From Candidatus Avelusimicrobium excrementipullorum (GTDB lineage: Bacteria > Elusimicrobiota > Elusimicrobia > Elusimicrobiales > Elusimicrobiaceae), in contig DWVB01000052.1 of NCBI GenBank assembly GCA_019120455.1, positions 1-32,236 of the forward strand: a DNA stretch of 32,236 nt. Direction: 5' to 3'. The position numbers and the translations under genes are program-made. The notes beneath the pieces were generated by a model. That model did not search any database. It was not told the DNA's origin and saw nothing but the letters and a program-made list of their open reading frames with translations. Shown here in pieces: positions 15,884-32,236 of this stretch; within the stretch, counting starts at the first letter, position 1, and each line of letters begins with the position of its first letter.

Positions 15884-15885
15884 TC

Positions 15886-15945
15886 TTGTTTTGTTTCCGT
15901 CTTTACGTTTATAATAAAAGTTAAGGACAAATATGTCTTTGGAGG
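15886..15945 (+). promoter_or_regulatory. Promoter and ribosome binding site of the first secreted family gene
   Basis: TTGTTT (15886-15891), 18 bp, TATAAT (15910-15915), and GGAGG at 15941-15945 before the ATG at 15950. Confidence 0.65.
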
Positions 15946-15949
15946 TCTT

Positions 15950-16921
15950 ATGAACACAGCCGTACGCGTCGTTTCCTGTCTGATGGCCATCTGTTTCTGT
16001 ACGTCTTCTTTCGCCCAAACCGCTCCTTCTTTGGCACAGCTGCAGGAGAAAGCCAAACAGCAGGTAGAGCAAACCCCCTGGATAAAACGTCACGCCGTAC
16101 CGCTGGCTGCCGTAGTGGCTGCAGGCGGAGCGCTGACCATCAACCAGCTGCGCCTGGCCCACCGCAACAAAGTTTTGCGCGCTCAAGTCAAAGAGCTGGA
16201 GCAAGGCCTGCAAGATTACAGGTATGAAGTTTCCCGCCTGCGGGAAAACAACGATTTTCTTTCCTGGAAAGCGGAGCAAGCAGAAAGCCGCGCCGCTTTT
16301 GCCGAAAAAATCTCCGAAAAAAACCATACCCCGAAATTCTCTGTGCAACCGACGCCAAAACCTGCACCTTCCACTTCGGAAAGCCTCCTTTCGCTGGCCA
16401 AAACGGATTTATCCAAACGGCTGGTGCAGGAACAGTCTTATTTATTAAAAACCATGCCTGAAGCCGAGGCCAAATACCTGTTGCAGAATGTAGATCTGCT
16501 GGCTAAACAGGATCCTACCCGGGCGATGTATACATTGCAGCGCATGATGAACAAATCCTCCGGCAATATCGCCCGCATACAGGCCCTTATTGCGGTGGAA
16601 AAATACATCAAATTCGGCGTGGTGACCGCCTTGCTGGCCATATTTATTGACACACCGGACGTTCAGGCGCAAACCCAGCTGATGCGCCTGCAGCAAAATC
16701 CGGCCCTGTTTTTAGAAGCCACGCCGCAGCAGCTGGCCGCCTGGGAACAAAACCCTCAGGCAAACGCTCTGTGCCGGCGCACGGCCGAAGCGATAGACCG
16801 TGCCGCTTCGCTGGACCTGTCCGATCAGGAGGCCCAGGCTTTGACGCGCCAGGCGGCGGAAGAAGTAGCCGCCCAAAAGGCAGAATTAAGCTCGCATCTG
16901 CGCAAACAACTGGCCCGTTAA
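15950..16921 (+). CDS. Secreted coiled-coil protein, local family member A
   Basis: Predicted 323-residue exported protein of no family I recognise; it shares an architecture with the next two genes. A signal peptide covers residues 1-22 (cleavage SFA|Q). A short helix QLQEKAKQQVEQTPWI is followed by a hydrophobic segment (about 49-65), a coiled-coil region (about 70-130), a Pro-rich linker, a helical part, a second hydrophobic segment FGVVTALLAIFI (222-233) with a VQAQ motif after it, and a conserved C-terminal domain: NPALFLEAT (250-258), QQLAAWE, one CRR (Cys-275), and the end QLAR. It has its own promoter, a GGAGG site at 15941-15945 and its own terminator. Envelope or periplasmic location is inferred; function is unknown. 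Confidence 0.6.
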   Translation: MNTAVRVVSCLMAICFCTSSFAQTAPSLAQLQEKAKQQVEQTPWIKRHAVPLAAVVAAGGALTINQLRLAHRNKVLRAQVKELEQGLQDYRYEVSRLRENNDFLSWKAEQAESRAAFAEKISEKNHTPKFSVQPTPKPAPSTSESLLSLAKTDLSKRLVQEQSYLLKTMPEAEAKYLLQNVDLLAKQDPTRAMYTLQRMMNKSSGNIARIQALIAVEKYIKFGVVTALLAIFIDTPDVQAQTQLMRLQQNPALFLEATPQQLAAWEQNPQANALCRRTAEAIDRAASLDLSDQEAQALTRQAAEEVAAQKAELSSHLRKQLAR

Positions 16922-16939
16922 TCATTACCCATCATATGC

Positions 16940-16966
16940 CCCCCGCTCTCCATAGCGGGGGTTTTT
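16940..16966 (+). terminator. Terminator of family gene A
   Basis: CCCCCGCT (16940-16947) / AGCGGGGG (16954-16961), 6-nt loop, followed by TTTTT. Confidence 0.92.
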
Positions 16967-17006
16967 GTATTCAAAAGGCCCAGGCGGATTACAGGTCCAA
17001 AAACCC

Positions 17007-17035
17007 TTGCGCTGCCGTTTGCGTTTACTTACAAT
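17007..17035 (+). promoter_or_regulatory. Promoter abutting family gene B (leaderless)
   Basis: TTGCGC (17007-17012), 17 bp, TACAAT (17030-17035), then AAAATT (6 nt) and ATG at 17042. No Shine-Dalgarno is present. It is the clearest -35/-10 pair among the leaderless-type starts. Confidence 0.6.
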
Positions 17036-17041
17036 AAAATT

Positions 17042-18046
17042 ATGAAACACTTCCATTCTTTTTTTTGTATGACTTTAAGCCTTTGTTTGGCTCTCTCTTC
17101 TTTTTCGCCTGTATACGGCGCCCAGCGGCAGAATGCCGCCGAACTGTACCGGCTGCGTGACCGGGCCCGCGCCGCACTGGCCATAAATCCGGATCAGGCC
17201 GATTATATACGTCAGCTGCTTACTTTAACGGCCGGTGTGGTCACTCTGGAAGCGCTGGCTGCGGCCGCAAGCGCCCGCACGGCAGAAGCCATAGCCGGCA
17301 CCCGTCAAAACGCTCGCTTTTCCTCTCCGCGGCAGGCTGACGTTTCCGGCGCCAAACGCCACCTGTTTGCCAAACGGCGGACCTCCGTGGAACTGACCGG
17401 CAGTCTGTTTGACCAGCCGGAGGCCTCCGCTCCGGCGGCAAAACCGACGGCGGATAAAGATTTGTCCTGGCTGGACGAACCCCGCAAACCCGTAGCCCCC
17501 AAACCCAAAGAACCGACTTTATTTGGTGAGCCCGCCGCGGAAATAAAACCGAAAACCCAGTTAAGCCAGCGTATTATGAAAAATTATCAGCCGCGCATCA
17601 GCCGCCTGCCTCTTTCCGAACAGCAGGGCCTCATAGAGGCTTTGGACGAAGCCGTTATGCGCAAAAGAACCGCCGGCAGACAGAACGCCATTAAATTTTT
17701 GGAACAAAAAGCGTTCCAGTCCTCTACCACCTCGCTGTACTTCATCATAGCCAAACGCATGCTGCTGCTGGCCGGCGTGCTGGCCGCCGCAGATCTATTT
17801 ATCCAAAGTTCCTCCCAGGAAAAAATGTTAGCCCGTCTGACCCAAAACCCTGTTTTGTTTTTAGACGCCACGGACCAACAACTGGAAGAACTGGCCCGAA
17901 ATCCGCAGGCCTCCGCTTACTGCCGGCGCATTACGGAAGTGGTAGAACGGCTGGCGTATACCCCGCTGACTGCGCAGGAACAGGCATTTTTGTCAGAGCA
18001 GCTGCCGCAACAGCCGACCTTATCTCCCTCCTTACTGGCCAGATAG
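17042..18046 (+). CDS. Secreted protein, local family member B
   Basis: Predicted 334-residue exported protein, unrecognised. Signal peptide residues 1-26 (MKHFHSFFCMTLSLCLALSS..., cleavage VYG|A), a helical region with an Ala-rich hydrophobic stretch TAGVVTLEALAAAASA (about 63-78), and a long Pro/Lys/Ala-rich low-complexity middle (about 90-180). A second hydrophobic segment LYFIIAKRMLLLAGVLAAADL (232-252) is followed by the same C-terminal domain as its neighbours: NPVLFLDAT (269-277), QQLEELARNP, CRR (Cys-294), and the end LLAR. Compared with A and C it has no clear coiled coil. It is probably leaderless (TACAAT 6 nt before the ATG). Confidence 0.58.
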   Translation: MKHFHSFFCMTLSLCLALSSFSPVYGAQRQNAAELYRLRDRARAALAINPDQADYIRQLLTLTAGVVTLEALAAAASARTAEAIAGTRQNARFSSPRQADVSGAKRHLFAKRRTSVELTGSLFDQPEASAPAAKPTADKDLSWLDEPRKPVAPKPKEPTLFGEPAAEIKPKTQLSQRIMKNYQPRISRLPLSEQQGLIEALDEAVMRKRTAGRQNAIKFLEQKAFQSSTTSLYFIIAKRMLLLAGVLAAADLFIQSSSQEKMLARLTQNPVLFLDATDQQLEELARNPQASAYCRRITEVVERLAYTPLTAQEQAFLSEQLPQQPTLSPSLLAR

Positions 18047-18053
18047 CGAAAAA

Positions 18054-18074
18054 GGCCCAGAGTGGCTCTGGGCC
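18054..18074. terminator. GC-rich hairpin after family gene B
   Basis: GGCCCAGAG (18054-18062)-TGG-CTCTGGGCC (18066-18074). There is no T run on the plus strand but five A residues precede it, so as an intrinsic terminator it would work better on the minus strand. It may instead stabilise the 3' end of the gene B mRNA. Confidence 0.5.
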
Positions 18075-18167
18075 CTAGGACCCTTGTTGAGGATATAATC
18101 TATCTTTTAGAATAAAAACAGACAACAACTTGTCCGTTACAATATTCAACAAGAGGTACTTACTATC
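18075..18167 (+). promoter_or_regulatory. Upstream region of family gene C
   Basis: Contains TATAAT (18095-18100) and TACAAT (18139-18144) as possible -10 elements and AGAGG at 18152-18156, 11 nt before the ATG at 18168, a longer spacing than usual. I cannot choose between the two promoters. Confidence 0.4.
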
Positions 18168-19430
18168 ATGCTACGCAAAAGTTTTGCTTTGTTTCTTTGT
18201 ATGTCCCTGTTGGGACAAAACGCCTTGTTTGCCACTCCCGCAGCGGAAGCCCAGCCCCAAACTTTAGCCCAATATCAACAACGCGCTAAAGAAGACTTAC
18301 AGCGTGCGCCGTGGATTTCCAACGAAGGAATTGCCCTATTGAGTTTAGGCGGCACTGCGGTGGGTTTGGGCATTGTACAGCATATCATACACAAAAGACA
18401 AATCAAAGAATTAACGGAAAATTTTGAAAACCAGTTACATAACGCCCGGGTTATGACCAGAAAATATCAGCAAATCGCCAAACAGGAACATCAACACCAA
18501 TATTCCCTGGTTCATCAATTAGAAGAACAAAACCGGGCTTTGCAGGAACAGCTGGGCATTTCCAACTCCAGAGCCTCCAAATGGAAAAAGCAGTACAACA
18601 GCCTGGCCAACTCCGACAGAGGCTGGCAGCAGGCTCGTATTGCCCAACTGGAAAAAGAAATCGCCTCTTTGACCCAACAGCTCCAAAAAGTCAGTTCCAT
18701 TTCCGCAAACAAATCCCAAACCATTCGCGCCATGCATAACAGAATCGTGGAACTAAAAAAAGATTTGCAGCAGTTGCAGGCCCGCTTCAATCAGAAAAAA
18801 GGACATTATACCGCTATGTTTAGCTATTCCTATGACTGGGAAAAAGAATTGAATGTCTACGAAAAACTGTTCGATAAAAATCTGCCGGCTTCCCAGCGGG
18901 CCGCCTTGCGTGCCCAGTTGTTAAAAGAGCCTTGGCTGCAGGCCGTTACGGAAGCACAACGCAAAGAATTTATGCATTTTATTGATGAGGGCATGTCCGT
19001 TTCCATCGGAGGAGGTAAAATCACCGCCAGCGAATATATGCGCTATATGTTGCGTTGGTGTGTAGACAAAAATCTGCCCCTCTTTGAACGCATGGTCGCC
19101 ATTTGCCGTCATATTTTCCATTCCAAAAATCTGCCTGCAATAGCCTTATTGGTGGTTTTAGGTGCCTCGGCCCACAACGCACATGCGCAGAAACAGGCCG
19201 ATCGTATAAACACCAACTTCCGCCTGTTCCTCAATGCCACGCCGAAACAGCTGGCTGCCATGGAAAAAGACGAGGAACTGCGCAAGATTTGCATCCAGGG
19301 CGCGGAAGCGCTGCATCAGATGAGTTTGATGTCCCCTTCTGAAGCGTCTTTCTTAAAATCTGGCCTGAAAGGAATTATGACCGCGGCTCCGAAAGCCGGG
19401 GCAAGGGGAACTATTAATCTGGCCAGATAA
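18168..19430 (+). CDS. Secreted coiled-coil protein, local family member C
   Basis: Predicted 420-residue exported protein, the longest of the three-gene family. Signal peptide residues 1-22 (cleavage LFA|T), then YQQRAKEDLQRAPWI, which aligns with the same helix in gene A, a hydrophobic segment (about 46-63), and a long coiled coil (about 70-210) rich in Gln/Glu/Lys heptads. A Tyr/Trp-containing middle domain (FSYSYDWEKELNVYEKLF) follows, then a second hydrophobic segment PAIALLVVLGASA (323-335) with an AHA|Q motif (338-341) resembling a signal peptidase site, then NFRLFLNAT (350-358), KQLAAME, Cys-375, and the end NLAR. Terminator at 19450. Function unknown; envelope-associated by inference. 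Confidence 0.6.
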   Translation: MLRKSFALFLCMSLLGQNALFATPAAEAQPQTLAQYQQRAKEDLQRAPWISNEGIALLSLGGTAVGLGIVQHIIHKRQIKELTENFENQLHNARVMTRKYQQIAKQEHQHQYSLVHQLEEQNRALQEQLGISNSRASKWKKQYNSLANSDRGWQQARIAQLEKEIASLTQQLQKVSSISANKSQTIRAMHNRIVELKKDLQQLQARFNQKKGHYTAMFSYSYDWEKELNVYEKLFDKNLPASQRAALRAQLLKEPWLQAVTEAQRKEFMHFIDEGMSVSIGGGKITASEYMRYMLRWCVDKNLPLFERMVAICRHIFHSKNLPAIALLVVLGASAHNAHAQKQADRINTNFRLFLNATPKQLAAMEKDEELRKICIQGAEALHQMSLMSPSEASFLKSGLKGIMTAAPKAGARGTINLAR

Positions 19431-19449
19431 AAGGATTCGTTACCCATAT

Positions 19450-19477
19450 AAAAACCCCGCTTTAGAGCGGGGTTTTT
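19450..19477. terminator. Bidirectional terminator between gene C and the nitroreductase
   Basis: 12-bp stem with A run, CCCCGCT/AGCGGGG core, loop TTAG, T run. Its 28-nt sequence differs by one base from the terminator at 20326-20353. Confidence 0.93.
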
Positions 19478-19484
19478 ATGTTTC

Positions 19485-26116: not shown

Positions 26117-27721
26117 CTACAGCGGGATATTGCCCGTGTTGGTGTGCTTACGCGGATCGCGTTTGTTTTTCAGAATACGCAGCGCGCTGATGATTTTGGC
26201 GCGCGCTTCGGAAGGCTCTATAATCTCGTCAATGGAGCCGTTCATGGCCGTCTGGTACGGCGAAGCGAATTTGTCGGAATATTCCTGCGTCAGTTTTTCC
26301 TTCATCGCTTCTTTTTTCTGCGGGTCTTCTTCTTTCTTTAAATCCTTGGAATACAGGATTTCCACCGCGCCGCGCGGGCCCATAACGGCAATTTCCGCGC
26401 TGGGGAAAGCAAAGTTGAAATCCCCGCGCAAATATTTGGATCCCATGGCGATATACGCCCCGCCGTAGGCTTTGCGCAGCACCAGGGTTACCTTCGGCAC
26501 GGTTGCTTCGGCATAGGCGTAGAGCAGCTTGGCTCCGTGGCGGATAATGCCGCCATGCTCCTGTTGCACCCCGGGCAGATAGCCGCCGATGTCCACCAGC
26601 GTTAAAATGGGGATATTAAACGCATTTAAAAAGCGGATAAAACGCGCGGCTTTGTCGCTGGCGTCGCAGTCCAGCGCGCCGCCCAAATGGGCCGGATTGT
26701 TGGCCACCACTCCCACCACTTCGCCGCCCATGCGGATAAAGCCCGTCACCACGTTTTTGGCAAAGTTCTGGTGTATTTCAAAAAATTCATAATTATCCGC
26801 CAGCCGCCAAATGACGTGATGAATGCGGAACGCCTTCTTGGGGTCCATTTCGCACACGCGTTCCAGCACATGCACGGGGCGGTCGGTAATATCGGTGGTG
26901 GTTTCCAGGGGAGGGTTTTCCTGATTGTTCTGCGGCAGGAAACTTAACAGTTCGCGCACCTGGCGGAAGCAGTCCTGCTCCGACTTGGCCACAAACTGGC
27001 ACACGCCGCTCTGTTCGCTGTGGGGCTTGCTGCCGCCGAGGGTGTCAAAATCCACCTCTTCGCCGGTGGCCGCTTTAACCACGCTGGGGCCCGTGACAAA
27101 CATATGGCTGATGCCTTCCACCATAAAAATGAAGTCCGTCAGCGCGGGCGAATACACCGCCCCGCCGGCGCAGGGACCCAAAATGACGGAAATCTGCGGA
27201 ATAACGCCGGAAGCCTTCACGTTGCGGTAAAAAATTTCCCCGTATCCGTCCAGGCTGCTTACGCCTTCCTGAATGCGCGCGCCGCCGCTGTCCAAAAGCC
27301 CGATGACGGGGATTTTGGCCTCCAGCGCTTTGTCCATAATATCGGCTATTTTTTTGGCGTGGGCCAGCCCCAAAGAGCCGCCCAGCTGCGTGAAATCCTG
27401 CGCGAAAATAGCCACGGGCCGGCCGTTAATGCGGCCGAAACCGGTAATGACGCCGTCGCCTTTGATGTGCTTGTCGGATACGCCGAAATCGTGGCAGTTG
27501 CTTTCCACCAGGCTTTTAATTTCAAAAAAGCTGTCTCGGTCCAGTAAATAAGAAAGACGTTCCCGGGCGGTAAATTTGCCCTTGGCTTTTTGGGCTTTGT
27601 TCTTTTCTTCCCCCGCGCCGGCCATGGCGTCCTGGTAAATCTGGCGGAATTTGACCAGGCTTTTGGGAGCCGGACGGTCGGATTTTTTATCCTCTCTGGG
27701 ATTGTCAAAAAGTTCTATCAT
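26117..27721 (-). CDS. Acyl-CoA carboxylase carboxyltransferase subunit (PccB/MmdA-like)
   Basis: Predicted 534-residue carboxyltransferase subunit of a biotin-dependent acyl-CoA carboxylase or methylmalonyl-CoA decarboxylase. Two crotonase-like halves are complete: KGKFTARERLSYLLD, GDGVITGFGRINGRPVAIFAQDFTQLGGSLG, the first oxyanion region LLDSGGARIQEGVSSLDGYG and GPCAGGAVYSPALTDF, and in the C-terminal half HLGGALDCDASDKAARF, LVDIGGYLPGVQQEHGGIIRHG and YGGAYIAMGSK. LVDIGGYLPG replaces the more usual VPGFLPG. GGGAGGG precedes the start. Lying downstream of the PPTase and polyketide synthase on the same strand, it could supply malonyl- or methylmalonyl-CoA; a role in propionate metabolism is equally possible. 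No biotin carboxylase or carrier gene is in the window. Confidence 0.92.
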   Translation of the reverse strand: MIELFDNPREDKKSDRPAPKSLVKFRQIYQDAMAGAGEEKNKAQKAKGKFTARERLSYLLDRDSFFEIKSLVESNCHDFGVSDKHIKGDGVITGFGRINGRPVAIFAQDFTQLGGSLGLAHAKKIADIMDKALEAKIPVIGLLDSGGARIQEGVSSLDGYGEIFYRNVKASGVIPQISVILGPCAGGAVYSPALTDFIFMVEGISHMFVTGPSVVKAATGEEVDFDTLGGSKPHSEQSGVCQFVAKSEQDCFRQVRELLSFLPQNNQENPPLETTTDITDRPVHVLERVCEMDPKKAFRIHHVIWRLADNYEFFEIHQNFAKNVVTGFIRMGGEVVGVVANNPAHLGGALDCDASDKAARFIRFLNAFNIPILTLVDIGGYLPGVQQEHGGIIRHGAKLLYAYAEATVPKVTLVLRKAYGGAYIAMGSKYLRGDFNFAFPSAEIAVMGPRGAVEILYSKDLKKEEDPQKKEAMKEKLTQEYSDKFASPYQTAMNGSIDEIIEPSEARAKIISALRILKNKRDPRKHTNTGNIPL

Positions 27722-28491: not shown

Positions 28492-31400
28492 TTACTGGCC
28501 GATGGCCTGGTAGCCGTGGAATTCCACCCACACGTCGCCTTTTTCGTCAAACACATACGCGTCGTGCAGGGTTTTGCCGTCGGCGGTCAAACCTTTAAAA
28601 CGCCCGTAGAGGTACAGCTTCTGCGGAGGCGTCTGGCGTTTGAACACGGCCACTTCTTTAATGCCGTCGGGCAGGGTCATTTTGTTGTCAATGGCCATAT
28701 CGCGGAAACCGCAGCACTGGAAGGCCGCCTCAATAAGCATCGGGTTGGCCAGCAGCACTTTCTGCCCGTCTTTCCACTGCGGCTGCGGGGTGGTGTTGTA
28801 GACGGCCAAAGAGCTGTCTTTATCCGCGCGCAAAATGCCGCCGAGCACCTGGAAGCTGGGGCCGTGGAAATACTTTTTGTAGATTTCCTCTTTGGAAATC
28901 TGCGGGGCGGCGTTCACATCCAAATGAATTTGGTCTTTGACCTCATTCCAGGTGGACACGAAACCGCTCTGCAGGGCCTTGGCCGTAAAGTGGCGGCGGG
29001 TATTGCCCATTTTAACGCCTTTGCTGTTAATAAAGTCGGACTCTATTTCCATGGAAATATCCCCGCCGACTTCCGCGCCGATGACGCGCACGGCCTGGGG
29101 CCGGTTGCGCAGCAGTTTAATGGGCAGGTAAAAATGCACGTCTTTTAAGCCCTGCGGCACGGAGCCGGAAAGCGCCGTCGCCGTTTCCATAAACGTTTCA
29201 ATGCCCATCACGCCCGGCACATACGGCGTGCCTTCAATGGCGTGGTCGGCCAGGTACGGGTCGGACTGCAGGTTAAATTCTTTTTCGGCGTGGATTTCTT
29301 TGCCTTTTTCCAAAGAAGCCACTTTGCCTAAAAAGTGATTGGCCTGCGACGGGTCGGGCAGGGCCACGTCCACCGCGGCGGTTTTGGGGGCGGCGGAAGA
29401 AGAACCGCCTTTGCCGCCTTTATCGCCTCCCTTGGGCGCGTTTTGCGCGCCCCGGGGTACGATTTCATCCATTTCCAAATGGTGCTGGTGATCCCAGTCC
29501 AGGCGGCCCAGAGAGCCGGTCAGCACGATTTCGGGCACGTCGCCGTACACGATTTCGTCCAGGAATATCTGCATACCGTCTTCGGGGTCCACAAAGTCCA
29601 CGCCGTTGGATTTGAGGAAGGTTTCCACGCCGGCGCGCACGCCCATGCCCACATTCTTGTAGGCGCTCATGGCGATGGAGATGGCGCGGTAGCCCTGGTT
29701 GGTCAGCGAGAAGGCGGACTTGGCCAAATAGTCGTTGGCCGACGCGTAATCGCTCTGGCCCAGGTTGCCGTATTTGCCGGCAATGGACGAAGCGAAAGCG
29801 AAGAAGCCGTCGTCGCGCACGATATTGTTGGCCAGGAAGCTGGCAAAGCTCGTGGCTTTCACGTCAAAGATGCGGTAGTATTCCGCGGGGTCTTTGTCGT
29901 AAATGAGTTTGGAGCGTTCCAGTCCGGCAAAGTGGATCAGTCCGTCCACGCGGCCGTTTTTGGCTTTAATCTTCGTGCAGACTTCTTTAACCATGGAGCT
30001 GTTCATCACGTCGCAGTGGTAATATTCCACTTCGCTGCCCAGCTCGCGCAGTTTCTGCAGGTTGTTGTAAAGCGTAATAGAATCTTTCACGCGGCCGAAA
30101 GCGCGCTCCAACAGCACCGGGGTGGCCTTTTGGGTTTTGTCGGCCTTGAGGTCCTCCCAGATTTGCTTCTTCAGTGCGGCCAGTTCGGCCTCGTTCATGG
30201 ACGCCCACAGCGGGGTCTTTTCCTGGATTTCAATGATGTCCAGTACGATGATTTTGCTGTGGTACTGCGCGGCGATTTTCTGGCTGAGCATGGCGCCGAT
30301 GCCGCGGCCCGAACCGGTGAAGATAATGGTCTTGCCGGCCAGGTCAAAGCGTTTTTCGCTGCGGTCCAAACGCACGGGCACGGACAGAATGGTGCTGCGG
30401 CCGCCTTCACGCGCGCCGATCATCAGGCGCATATCGCCGTGGAGCACTTCGTCCATGGTGTAGCGGGCCATTTCGTCGGGCGTGGCCGTGGGCTCAAAAT
30501 CAATGAGCTTGGAAATGGCGCCGGTGCGTTCGTACACGTCTTTGCGGTAGCAGGTAACGCCGCCGGTCAGCGCGCCGGAGATGGGGTTAAACTCATCTTT
30601 GGTCGTGTAACCGAAGTTACCGTCAATCTTGGTGTTGACCGCAAAGAACGTGTCGGCGTCGGCACGGTTGGACAGACCTTTTTCAAATACGCGCAGCGCA
30701 ATAAACAGCGGCATGACGTATTTGGTCAGTTCATTGTGCGGGCTGACTTTCTTGTCAAATTTCTTGACCGTCGCACCCAGCAGGTACACGATACCCTGAA
30801 TGTTGGGGTCTTCGGCGGCGTATTCTTTCAGCGCGGCCTCGGTTTCTTCGTAAGATTCCCAGTTTACGATAGTCGTGTTTTTGCTGCGGGTTTTGAGCGT
30901 GGTGAACACATGCGTTTTGACGCCCAATTCCTTGAACTCTTCCTGATAGGCTTTAATGAGCTGGGAATTGTCGGCAAAGATCAGCACGGTGCGGTCCTTG
31001 GCCAGGCGGCGGTTTTCGCGCTCGGTCAGCGGGGCCTGCGCCACGACGGTTACACTGCGCAGTTTTTTCTCATGGCAGTGTTCGCCGGCGTACCCTTCGC
31101 GCTCGGGCCGTTCGGCCAAAGACTCATGCGGCTTAATCGGCGCGGTCGGGTTGGTGGTCAGCATTTCTTCAGAAGGCTTTTCCACTTTTCCGGCGGTCGG
31201 CACGGCATCCTGCACTTTGTCCACTTCAATGGTGGGCAGGGCAGGGGCGGCAGGTTCTTCCTGCACTTGCGCAGCCGCCGTTTGCACGGGGGCCGCGGCA
31301 GACGCGGGCTGGGCCGCAGGCGTTACGGGCGCGGCAGCCGGAGCTGGTGCGGCGGCAGGGGCCGCGGCGGCTTGGCCTTCGGTGCCGGCATTGGCCATAG

Positions 31401-32236
31401 CGTACTGAATAATGGAGCGGATCGTCGGATAGTCTTTGAGCTGGACGCCTTCCTGGCGCGCAATTTGGTATTTCTCACGCATCACGGCAAAGAGTTCGGC
31501 CTGTTTGACCGTATCAATGCCCAGGTCGGCTTCCATGTCCAAGTCCAGATCCAGCATATCTTCCGGATAGCCGGTTTTTTCAGCCACGATGGCTTTAATG
31601 TCCGCCGTAACGGAGGCTTCGTCCAAACTCGGCAGCGGGCCGGACGTTTTCGGCGCAGCCGCAGGAGCAACAGCCACGGGGGCCGCGGCAGGCGCGGGCT
31701 GGGCCGCAGGCGTTACGGGCGCCGCAGCCGGAGCAGGTGCGGCGGCAGGGGCCGCAGCAGTACCCGCTTCACTGCCCGCATTAGCCATAGCATATTTAAT
31801 AATGGAACGAATCGTCGGATAATCTTTAAGCTGGACGCCTTCCTGGCGCGCAATCTGATACTTTTCGCGCATGATGGCGAACAGTTCGGCCTGTTTGACC
31901 GTATCAATACCCAGGTCGGCTTCCATGTCCAAGTCCAGGTCCAGCATATCTTCGGGGTAACCCGTTTTCTCCGCTACGATGGACAGGATATCCTTGGTTA
32001 CACTGGCTTCGTCCAAGCTCGGCAGGGCCGCAGCAGGTTTAGCCGCAGGAGCCACCGTTTGCACGGGGGCCGCGGCAGGCGCGGGCTGGGCCGCAGACGT
32101 TACGGGCGCCGCAGCCGGAGCCGCGGCGGCCTGGCCTTCGGTGCCGGCATTGGCCATAGCATATTTAATAATGGAGCGAATGGTCGGATAGTCCTTAAGC
32201 TGGACGCCTTCCTGTCTGGCAATCTGATACTTTTCG
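28492..32236 (-). CDS. Polyketide/PUFA-type synthase, C-terminal part (ACPs-KR-DH), 5' end outside window
   Basis: The frame is open to the right edge, so the N-terminus (presumably ketosynthase and acyltransferase) lies outside; at least 1247 residues are visible. Order from the N side: the tail of one ACP (32158-32236), two full ACPs separated by Ala/Pro/Gln-rich linkers, an Ala/Pro linker, a PfaA-style ketoreductase with a structural half and a catalytic half (TGSGRGIGAM for NADPH; SSIAGKYGN and YASANDYLA for catalysis), a linker, and a hot-dog dehydratase with HAIEGTPYVPG (HxxxGxxxxP). In the second DH half NPMLIEAAFQ has Glu where Asp is usual. In both full ACPs the attachment motif is LGIDTVKQ, with Thr in place of Ser. 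The layout resembles PUFA synthases and related iterative lipid synthases; the product is unknown. A PPTase gene follows. Confidence 0.88.
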   Translation of the reverse strand, partial: EKYQIARQEGVQLKDYPTIRSIIKYAMANAGTEGQAAAAPAAAPVTSAAQPAPAAAPVQTVAPAAKPAAALPSLDEASVTKDILSIVAEKTGYPEDMLDLDLDMEADLGIDTVKQAELFAIMREKYQIARQEGVQLKDYPTIRSIIKYAMANAGSEAGTAAAPAAAPAPAAAPVTPAAQPAPAAAPVAVAPAAAPKTSGPLPSLDEASVTADIKAIVAEKTGYPEDMLDLDLDMEADLGIDTVKQAELFAVMREKYQIARQEGVQLKDYPTIRSIIQYAMANAGTEGQAAAAPAAAPAPAAAPVTPAAQPASAAAPVQTAAAQVQEEPAAPALPTIEVDKVQDAVPTAGKVEKPSEEMLTTNPTAPIKPHESLAERPEREGYAGEHCHEKKLRSVTVVAQAPLTERENRRLAKDRTVLIFADNSQLIKAYQEEFKELGVKTHVFTTLKTRSKNTTIVNWESYEETEAALKEYAAEDPNIQGIVYLLGATVKKFDKKVSPHNELTKYVMPLFIALRVFEKGLSNRADADTFFAVNTKIDGNFGYTTKDEFNPISGALTGGVTCYRKDVYERTGAISKLIDFEPTATPDEMARYTMDEVLHGDMRLMIGAREGGRSTILSVPVRLDRSEKRFDLAGKTIIFTGSGRGIGAMLSQKIAAQYHSKIIVLDIIEIQEKTPLWASMNEAELAALKKQIWEDLKADKTQKATPVLLERAFGRVKDSITLYNNLQKLRELGSEVEYYHCDVMNSSMVKEVCTKIKAKNGRVDGLIHFAGLERSKLIYDKDPAEYYRIFDVKATSFASFLANNIVRDDGFFAFASSIAGKYGNLGQSDYASANDYLAKSAFSLTNQGYRAISIAMSAYKNVGMGVRAGVETFLKSNGVDFVDPEDGMQIFLDEIVYGDVPEIVLTGSLGRLDWDHQHHLEMDEIVPRGAQNAPKGGDKGGKGGSSSAAPKTAAVDVALPDPSQANHFLGKVASLEKGKEIHAEKEFNLQSDPYLADHAIEGTPYVPGVMGIETFMETATALSGSVPQGLKDVHFYLPIKLLRNRPQAVRVIGAEVGGDISMEIESDFINSKGVKMGNTRRHFTAKALQSGFVSTWNEVKDQIHLDVNAAPQISKEEIYKKYFHGPSFQVLGGILRADKDSSLAVYNTTPQPQWKDGQKVLLANPMLIEAAFQCCGFRDMAIDNKMTLPDGIKEVAVFKRQTPPQKLYLYGRFKGLTADGKTLHDAYVFDEKGDVWVEFHGYQAIGQ
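31396..32236 (-). repeat. Tandem ACP repeats in the synthase gene
   Basis: Three copies of an ACP-plus-linker unit, the rightmost cut by the window edge. Spacing between equivalent Met codons is 369 bp (32157 to 31788) and 390 bp (31788 to 31398). The ACP parts are almost identical at DNA level; differences are mainly in the Ala/Pro linkers. The phosphopantetheine-site Thr codons are at 31900-31902 and 31510-31512. Confidence 0.9.

Follow-up and report, generated by a model that had tools for sequence, protein, structure and literature searches.

In the present study, a window of 32,236 nucleotides, which is one contig of the 1.41-Mb draft genome of Candidatus Avelusimicrobium excrementipullorum, was analysed with regard to three consecutive genes designated A, B and C. 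Their products are members of an undescribed, genus-level protein family, and the C-terminal tail of this family is a species-specific residue pair carried by paralogues that have diverged and are in part unlinked. Its form goes with the genome rather than with the subfamily. A preliminary description of the window had pointed to the terminal tripeptide LAR of A, B and C as a possible sorting or recognition tag; it was right that the extreme C-terminus matters, but the letters LAR are not the point. The best reading, put forward here tentatively, is that of a C-terminal recognition tag common to all copies and read by one shared partner.

Family copies were found with profile A2, built from 48 C-terminal domains, and the fetched loci gave 78 members, 75 of them with an intact C-terminus. 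The control set comprised 298 unrelated open reading frames (ORFs) of at least 180 amino acids (aa) from the same loci. The last residue of the intact members is R in 39, Y in 15, H in eight, K in four and F in three, and the residue at position −2 is A in 43, S in 11 and N in six; L occupies position −3 in 31 members and position −7 in 35. A tail of the class [ASN][RYHKF] terminates 58/75 members versus 21/298 control ORFs, whose commonest last residue is K, followed by L. The AR terminus was found in 26/75 and the literal LAR in 16/75 members, versus 0/298 control ORFs in both cases. LAR is thus one variant of a more general tail. The preliminary description had held that relatives without LAR would speak against its proposal; this is what was found for the letters, other members ending in, for example, AY, AH, SY, SNR or LSR, but not for the residue class.

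Within a genome the tails tend to be alike. Genome G033 has three LAR, G050 has LAR, LAR, IAR, MAR and LPR, and G035 has KAH, RAH and SAH (AH in 3/3). The tails of G005 are QAY, three times KAY and one RQI (AY in 4/5), those of G032 are LSY, VSY, LSY and LIR, and those of G024 are four SNR (4/7), SSY, GSY and MRR. The subfamily tree, built without the last four residues and from few columns, with 25/71 inner branches open, divides the members into A, B, C and dispersed groups. Among same-genome pairs between subfamilies, the last residue is the same in 68/114 (permuted mean 41.1, standard deviation (sd) 4.5, 0/2000) and the last two residues in 42/114 (permuted mean 17.2, sd 3.4, 0/2000). Comparison of array copies with dispersed copies of the same genome gave agreement of the last residue in 37/69 pairs (expected 22.7, sd 4.2, 1/5000) and of the last two in 22/69 (expected 9.0, sd 3.2, 2/5000). 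When genomes were collapsed to clades and ties dropped, which kept 24/28 cells, the last residue agreed in 20/20 between-subfamily pairs (9.3 expected, sd 2.0, 0/10,000 permutations) and the last two residues in 11/15 (4.6 expected, sd 1.6, 10/10,000). The tail of one subfamily predicts that of another and is therefore not as expected under independent evolution. Since tails agree genome by genome across subfamilies, reading by something else in the cell is favoured.

It seems improbable that this agreement arose with no partner at all, either from base composition combined with a slight bias towards bulky residues at the end, or from gene conversion in the past. The changes from R to H and from H to Y each take a single base, and Y or H is the last residue more often in genomes of low G+C content, with exceptions: G040 (44% G+C) has R, G024 (45%) mostly R, and G042 and G052 (52%) mostly H or K. 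However, the ratio R/(R+Y+H) over whole family proteins shifts just from 0.47 to 0.63 among the genus genomes, while the tails range from no R to all R, and the control ORFs of the same genomes are without such tails. Gene conversion is unlikely because identical tails use different synonymous codons; their 3′ flanks are mostly unrelated. The three KAY tails of G005, for example, are encoded by AAA GCA TAT, AAA GCT TAT and AAG GCG TAC, and their 3′ flanks are unrelated.

A general LAR tag was rejected, the pattern (L/F)AR-stop giving 87 matches in the genome of the window versus 83 for the reversed control pattern. Matches ending in TGG, which is not a stop, entered the ORF check of this genome only where they lay within stretches already covered. 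The stretches examined contained 59 distinct in-frame (L/F)AR stops, and eight of the ORFs had at least 80 aa, namely A, B, C and another five. Of these, the one on the reverse strand of locus L292 passed a crude signal-peptide test and was judged by eye to be a shadow ORF; none of the five other long ORFs is a convincing secreted protein. The search for further signal-peptide proteins ending in LAR, which the preliminary description had suggested, thus yielded no convincing one in this genome, and for this reason the tag is considered to belong to the family and not to be a general sorting tag. Of the original proposal, the undescribed family, a C-terminus conserved beyond controls and a separate promoter-like element for each gene are supported. 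In G024, nine distinct in-frame (I)xNR stops were found; four long ORFs end in ISNR, all of them family members, and one further long ORF outside the family ends in IWNR. G005 and G035 gave 18 matches to V-x-A-[YH]-stop, among which the ORFs longer than 100 aa were six family members only. The tag of transfer-messenger RNA (tmRNA, ssrA) was rejected as well: it ends in VAWANA in eight genomes and in NWATA in G067, irrespective of the family tail, and for the genome of the window and for G005 no tmRNA scored above the search cut-off.

The architecture ascribed to A, B and C in the preliminary description, from the ORFs to the LAR ends, was borne out. All three begin with a signal peptide, followed by a hydrophobic segment near residues 48–75, a variable middle and, according to hydropathy, a second hydrophobic segment 95–105 residues from the C-terminus. 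The middle is Pro/Lys-rich in B; the coiled coil proposed for A and C corresponds to long helices in the AlphaFold 2 (AF2) models. Towards the C-terminus, net charge falls across the second span in 66/70 members and rises across the first span in 51/70 (7 ties). By the positive-inside rule for membrane topology, this charge bias indicates a cytoplasmic middle and a periplasmic C-terminal domain (C-domain). It argues for membrane-inserted proteins with two spans and a periplasmic, possibly released C-domain; the term ‘secreted’, used previously, should be corrected accordingly.

In its features, the second hydrophobic segment resembles a signal peptide placed inside the protein, and cleavage after it is predicted. 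The motif [AV]xAQ follows the second span in 32/70 members, the N-terminal signal peptide in 16/70 and the first span in 0/70. The looser pattern AxA was found at the second span in 54/70, where it is expected by chance in about 53% of shuffled regions, at the signal peptide in 38/70 and at the first span in 15/70. Divided by type, AxA is present in 7/8 A, 44/50 C and dispersed, and 3/12 B members, which makes an internal signal-peptidase site likely in A and C but unlikely in B. Sequence features of a signal peptidase I site are frequent in A-type, C-type and dispersed copies, most of which have them, and rare in B-type copies. A motif resembling LLGQ(S/N) was also observed inside the signal peptide of 24/70 members, most visibly in the C-type (e.g., window 18168-18240).

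Starting from the observed family, its architecture, the tail conservation, the genome-wise agreement and the charge asymmetry, the following scheme may be proposed. The proteins would be Sec-exported to the inner membrane, with a signal peptide, a short periplasmic stretch, a first span and a coiled-coil or variable middle in the cytoplasm. The second span, shaped as an internal signal peptide, would lead to a periplasmic domain, small and built of helices only, in which one Arg is invariant, and then to a linker ending in the tail L-[RK]-x-x-[LVIM]-[AS]-[R/Y/H]. Most A-type, C-type and dispersed copies probably release their C-domain through a signal peptidase I cut behind the second span; B-type copies would remain anchored. 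The free carboxyl end would be a docking tag for one putative periplasmic or outer-membrane partner per species, the outcome of docking being sorting, tethering or regulated processing. As all copies would have to fit one pocket, a change of that pocket would be followed by a joint change of the last residue in all of them.

The C-domains themselves are diverged, being only 13–59% identical to that of C. The previously described block is present in A, B and C (NPALFLEATPQQL / NPVLFLDATDQQL / NFRLFLNATPKQL) and is followed by a Cys in each; its common form is NP-x-LFL-x-AT-x-x-QL, with NF for NP in C. The Cys, however, is kept in only 46/75 members. An Arg shortly after the second span is invariant (75/75), and an Asn four columns beyond it is found in 64 of 75 members. 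In the AF2 models of A and C the domain is all helical. Mutual recognition of the paralogues, the main rival to a shared reader, is considered unlikely. The carboxyl end of one C-domain would bind the C-domain of a neighbour, possibly with the invariant Arg as a candidate carboxylate ligand, and mixed oligomers would result in one tail per species. Such docking accounts for the genome-wise agreement equally well, and the invariance of the Arg despite the divergence of the domains, the presence of several copies in every positive genome and the failure to find an outside partner among the neighbours are in line with it. Nevertheless, no strong covariation of C-domain columns with tail class was detected (the highest z among 109 columns was 3.9, not corrected for phylogeny), and the AF2 monomers show no sign of a docked tail: the end of C has a predicted local distance difference test (pLDDT) score <50, and A runs as a plain helix to its end.

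Several points weigh against a recognition tag read by one shared partner. Seventeen of the 75 members are outside the tail class, including both copies of the outlying genome G067. Without the R-tailed clades only six pairs are left in the clade test (6/6 agree, reached by 545/10,000), and the clade and subfamily lists were drawn up by hand. Base composition may contribute, in view of the commoner Y/H tails in lower-G+C genomes; the chance level of AxA at the second span is high; and the AF2 models are of low-to-moderate confidence, with predicted template modelling (pTM) scores of 0.38 and 0.45. The shared tail could also serve contacts among family members. Besides, the partner was not found, the genes around family copies being mostly ordinary.

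Among the genes that recur beside one group of dispersed copies, only one is suggestive of function. It encodes a secreted trypsin-like protease and lies directly downstream of a family copy in all seven genomes of that neighbour cluster. In the genome of the window, a secreted trypsin-fold protease (L169:5700-6701, minus strand, contig 89; Pfam Trypsin, E 1.5e-7) is directly 3′ of a family member. S1 proteases classically accept R, K, Y and F at P1, and the tail might be a P1-type ligand of this periplasmic protease, with its C-terminal R, K, Y, F or H in the S1 pocket as an inhibitor, tether or product mimic; the adjacency in the cluster fits this idea, which is nonetheless regarded as very improbable. 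The protease occurs in 83/90 genomes, most of them without the family (two related matches in most genus genomes), and several positive genomes have no family copy beside it; moreover, when read by eye against the trypsin numbering, the residue six before the catalytic Ser is Gly and not Asp. Since the protease is found both alongside the family and in its absence, a single inherited insertion beside a resident gene may account for the adjacency. In family-less genomes (L237-L246), the place of the family member 5′ of the protease is mostly taken by another ORF of ~370–490 aa (stop to stop), which ends near SGFDA(C/G)(L/F)(V/I)FP.

The profile search found the family in 18/90 genomes of the family rank, 17/66 within the genus and 1/24 outside it, and phylum-wide in 18/340 genomes. 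Every positive genome carries two to seven copies. The genome of the window has five: A, B, C and dispersed copies on contigs 15 and 89, ending in LAF and LSR, respectively. By the sigma-factor gene, the ten closest genomes all carry the family and, among the next nearest, G022 and G012 are negative, which indicates mainly vertical descent with losses. In the negative genome G023, the matches to spoVG and nitroreductase, the genes flanking the array, are separated by only 288 bases, and the array is therefore missing. The members of G015 and G007 (L089:5433-6578 and L090:4265-5410) are identical in their C-terminal domains and share the 3′ flank, which may be due to either a recent transfer or a cross-binned contig.

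No curated family was found to fit these proteins, as the preliminary description had anticipated. Pfam gave no match above cut-off for A, B and C, and no sorting-tag or Type IX sorting-domain model of NCBIfam matched any of 22 members (E 0.01). PHROGs yielded only weak matches, to C over its coiled-coil part, and PDB sequences only short weak ones (best E 0.002). Foldseek searches with the predicted models found nothing at E 0.001; the best Z of VIA-align 2 was 6.2, for A, and Z is not meaningful for helical models. No known structure stood out in these comparisons. A literature search at the level of titles and abstract openings found no published account of the family. A phage origin was rejected, because 0/192 pattern matches in viral contigs encode a relative.

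A, B and C are real paralogues: with gene A as a query, a whole-genome search matched B at E 1e-15 and C at E 1e-6. Their array is flanked by spoVG and a tRNA-Gln gene on one side and by nitroreductase, tRNA-Arg and sigma-70-type genes on the other. The features of the array are given in Table 1. The preliminary description had assigned each gene its own control region, and a promoter-like element, CTTG(T/C) ... TAnAAT, is kept in most of the aligned sequences upstream of the A, B and C orthologues (8, 8 and 11, respectively). One promoter per gene is supported by this alignment, although a consensus promoter scanner did not list the sites of A, B and C. The mRNA of gene B may be leaderless, because its −10-like element stops six bases short of the ATG; the spacing of TACAAT to ATG (window 17030-17044) is kept among B orthologues. 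Gene B is followed by a strong hairpin without a T-run, GGCCCAGAG-TGG-CTCTGGGCC (window 18054-18075), just 5′ of the promoter-like element of C, and its pairing appears partly kept in C-type orthologues. Elsewhere in the window, a 1221-aa protein (28492-32157, minus strand) near a carboxyl transferase (26117-27721) has phosphopantetheine, ketoreductase and dehydratase domains, by which it is labelled a putative megasynthase of the polyketide or fatty-acid type.

Table 1. Coordinates of genes, protein segments and control elements of the A-B-C array in the window
Feature	Position	Strand	Remarks
Gene A, subfamily A	15950..16921	+	323 aa ORF, C-terminal QLAR
Gene B, subfamily B	17042..18046	+	334 aa ORF, C-terminal LLAR
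Gene C, subfamily C	18168..19430	+	420 aa ORF, C-terminal NLAR
A, signal peptide, residues 1-22	15950..16015	+	hydropathy, K/R start, FAQ c-region
A, first hydrophobic segment, then positive stretch (predicted cytoplasmic side)	16091..16141	+	hydropathy and charge
A, second hydrophobic segment	16604..16669	+	ends VQA before Q, signal-peptidase-I-like
A, predicted periplasmic helical C-domain	16670..16897	+	invariant Arg R246, Asn N250
A, tail LRKQLAR	16898..16918	+	L −7, R −6, L −3, A −2, R −1
B, first hydrophobic segment	17216..17266	+	
B, second hydrophobic segment	17759..17803	+	AxA site in 3/12 B-type members
B, terminal LAR	18035..18043	+	
C, first hydrophobic segment	18327..18377	+	
C, long helices, probable coiled coil	18378..18821	+	AF2; cytoplasmic by charge bias
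C, second hydrophobic segment	19131..19187	+	ends AHA before Q, signal-peptidase-I-like
C, predicted periplasmic helical C-domain	19188..19382	+	R346 and C375 invariant in 20 aligned C-types, N350 nearly
C, terminal LAR	19419..19427	+	
Promoter-like element of A, CTTGTT ... TATAAT	15885..15915	+	conserved in alignment
Promoter-like element of B, CTTGCG ... TACAAT	17006..17035	+	ends six bases before ATG
Promoter-like element of C, CTTGTT ... TAGAAT	18083..18113	+	conserved in alignment
Terminator-like hairpin with T-run after A	16940..16961	+	
Terminator-like hairpin with T-run after C	19446..19481	+	

Type IX secretion employs a C-terminal domain, a beta-sandwich, which is needed for recognition at the envelope. 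The family resembles Type IX substrates in having a C-terminal domain and in its proposed recognition at the envelope, but identity with them was rejected, the C-domain being all helical in the AF2 models and none of the 22 members matching a Type IX model in NCBIfam. The GlyGly-CTERM/rhombosortase and PEP-CTERM/exosortase systems (PMC3237569, PMC6219818) likewise combine many proteins per genome, one C-terminal signal and one partner, which in the present family is a putative one. Their tags consist of a motif, a transmembrane helix and a basic end and are attached to unrelated proteins. In contrast, the tag described here is the last 2–7 residues, with no membrane helix after the domain; it is confined to one homologous family, and its last residue varies between species. 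No hydrophobic segment was detected by hydropathy within the final 60 residues of any of the three proteins. In the membrane anti-sigma factors RsiV and RsiP (PMC4183432, PMC8844934), an internal membrane segment is cut by signal peptidase and the outer domain is released, as is predicted for the family. Unlike RsiV and RsiP, the family proteins have no sigma-binding domain that could be found, and a first signal peptide and another span precede the predicted cleavage site.

It is possible, if doubtful, that this gut Elusimicrobiales clade possesses a C-terminal address code of its own. Two to seven paralogous envelope proteins would bear a species-specific terminal pair (AR, AY, AH, SY or NR), a single undescribed receptor or processing machine would read the carboxyl end of a helical domain freed from its membrane precursor at the internal signal peptide, and receptor and code would switch together from one species to another. 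Concerted change of the last residue in diverged, partly unlinked paralogues would then be the genetic trace that a hidden reader of carboxyl ends naturally leaves. If true, this would offer a route to C-terminal recognition systems without conserved letters and would reveal, in a gut lineage not yet cultured, a bacterial address tag that can be switched.

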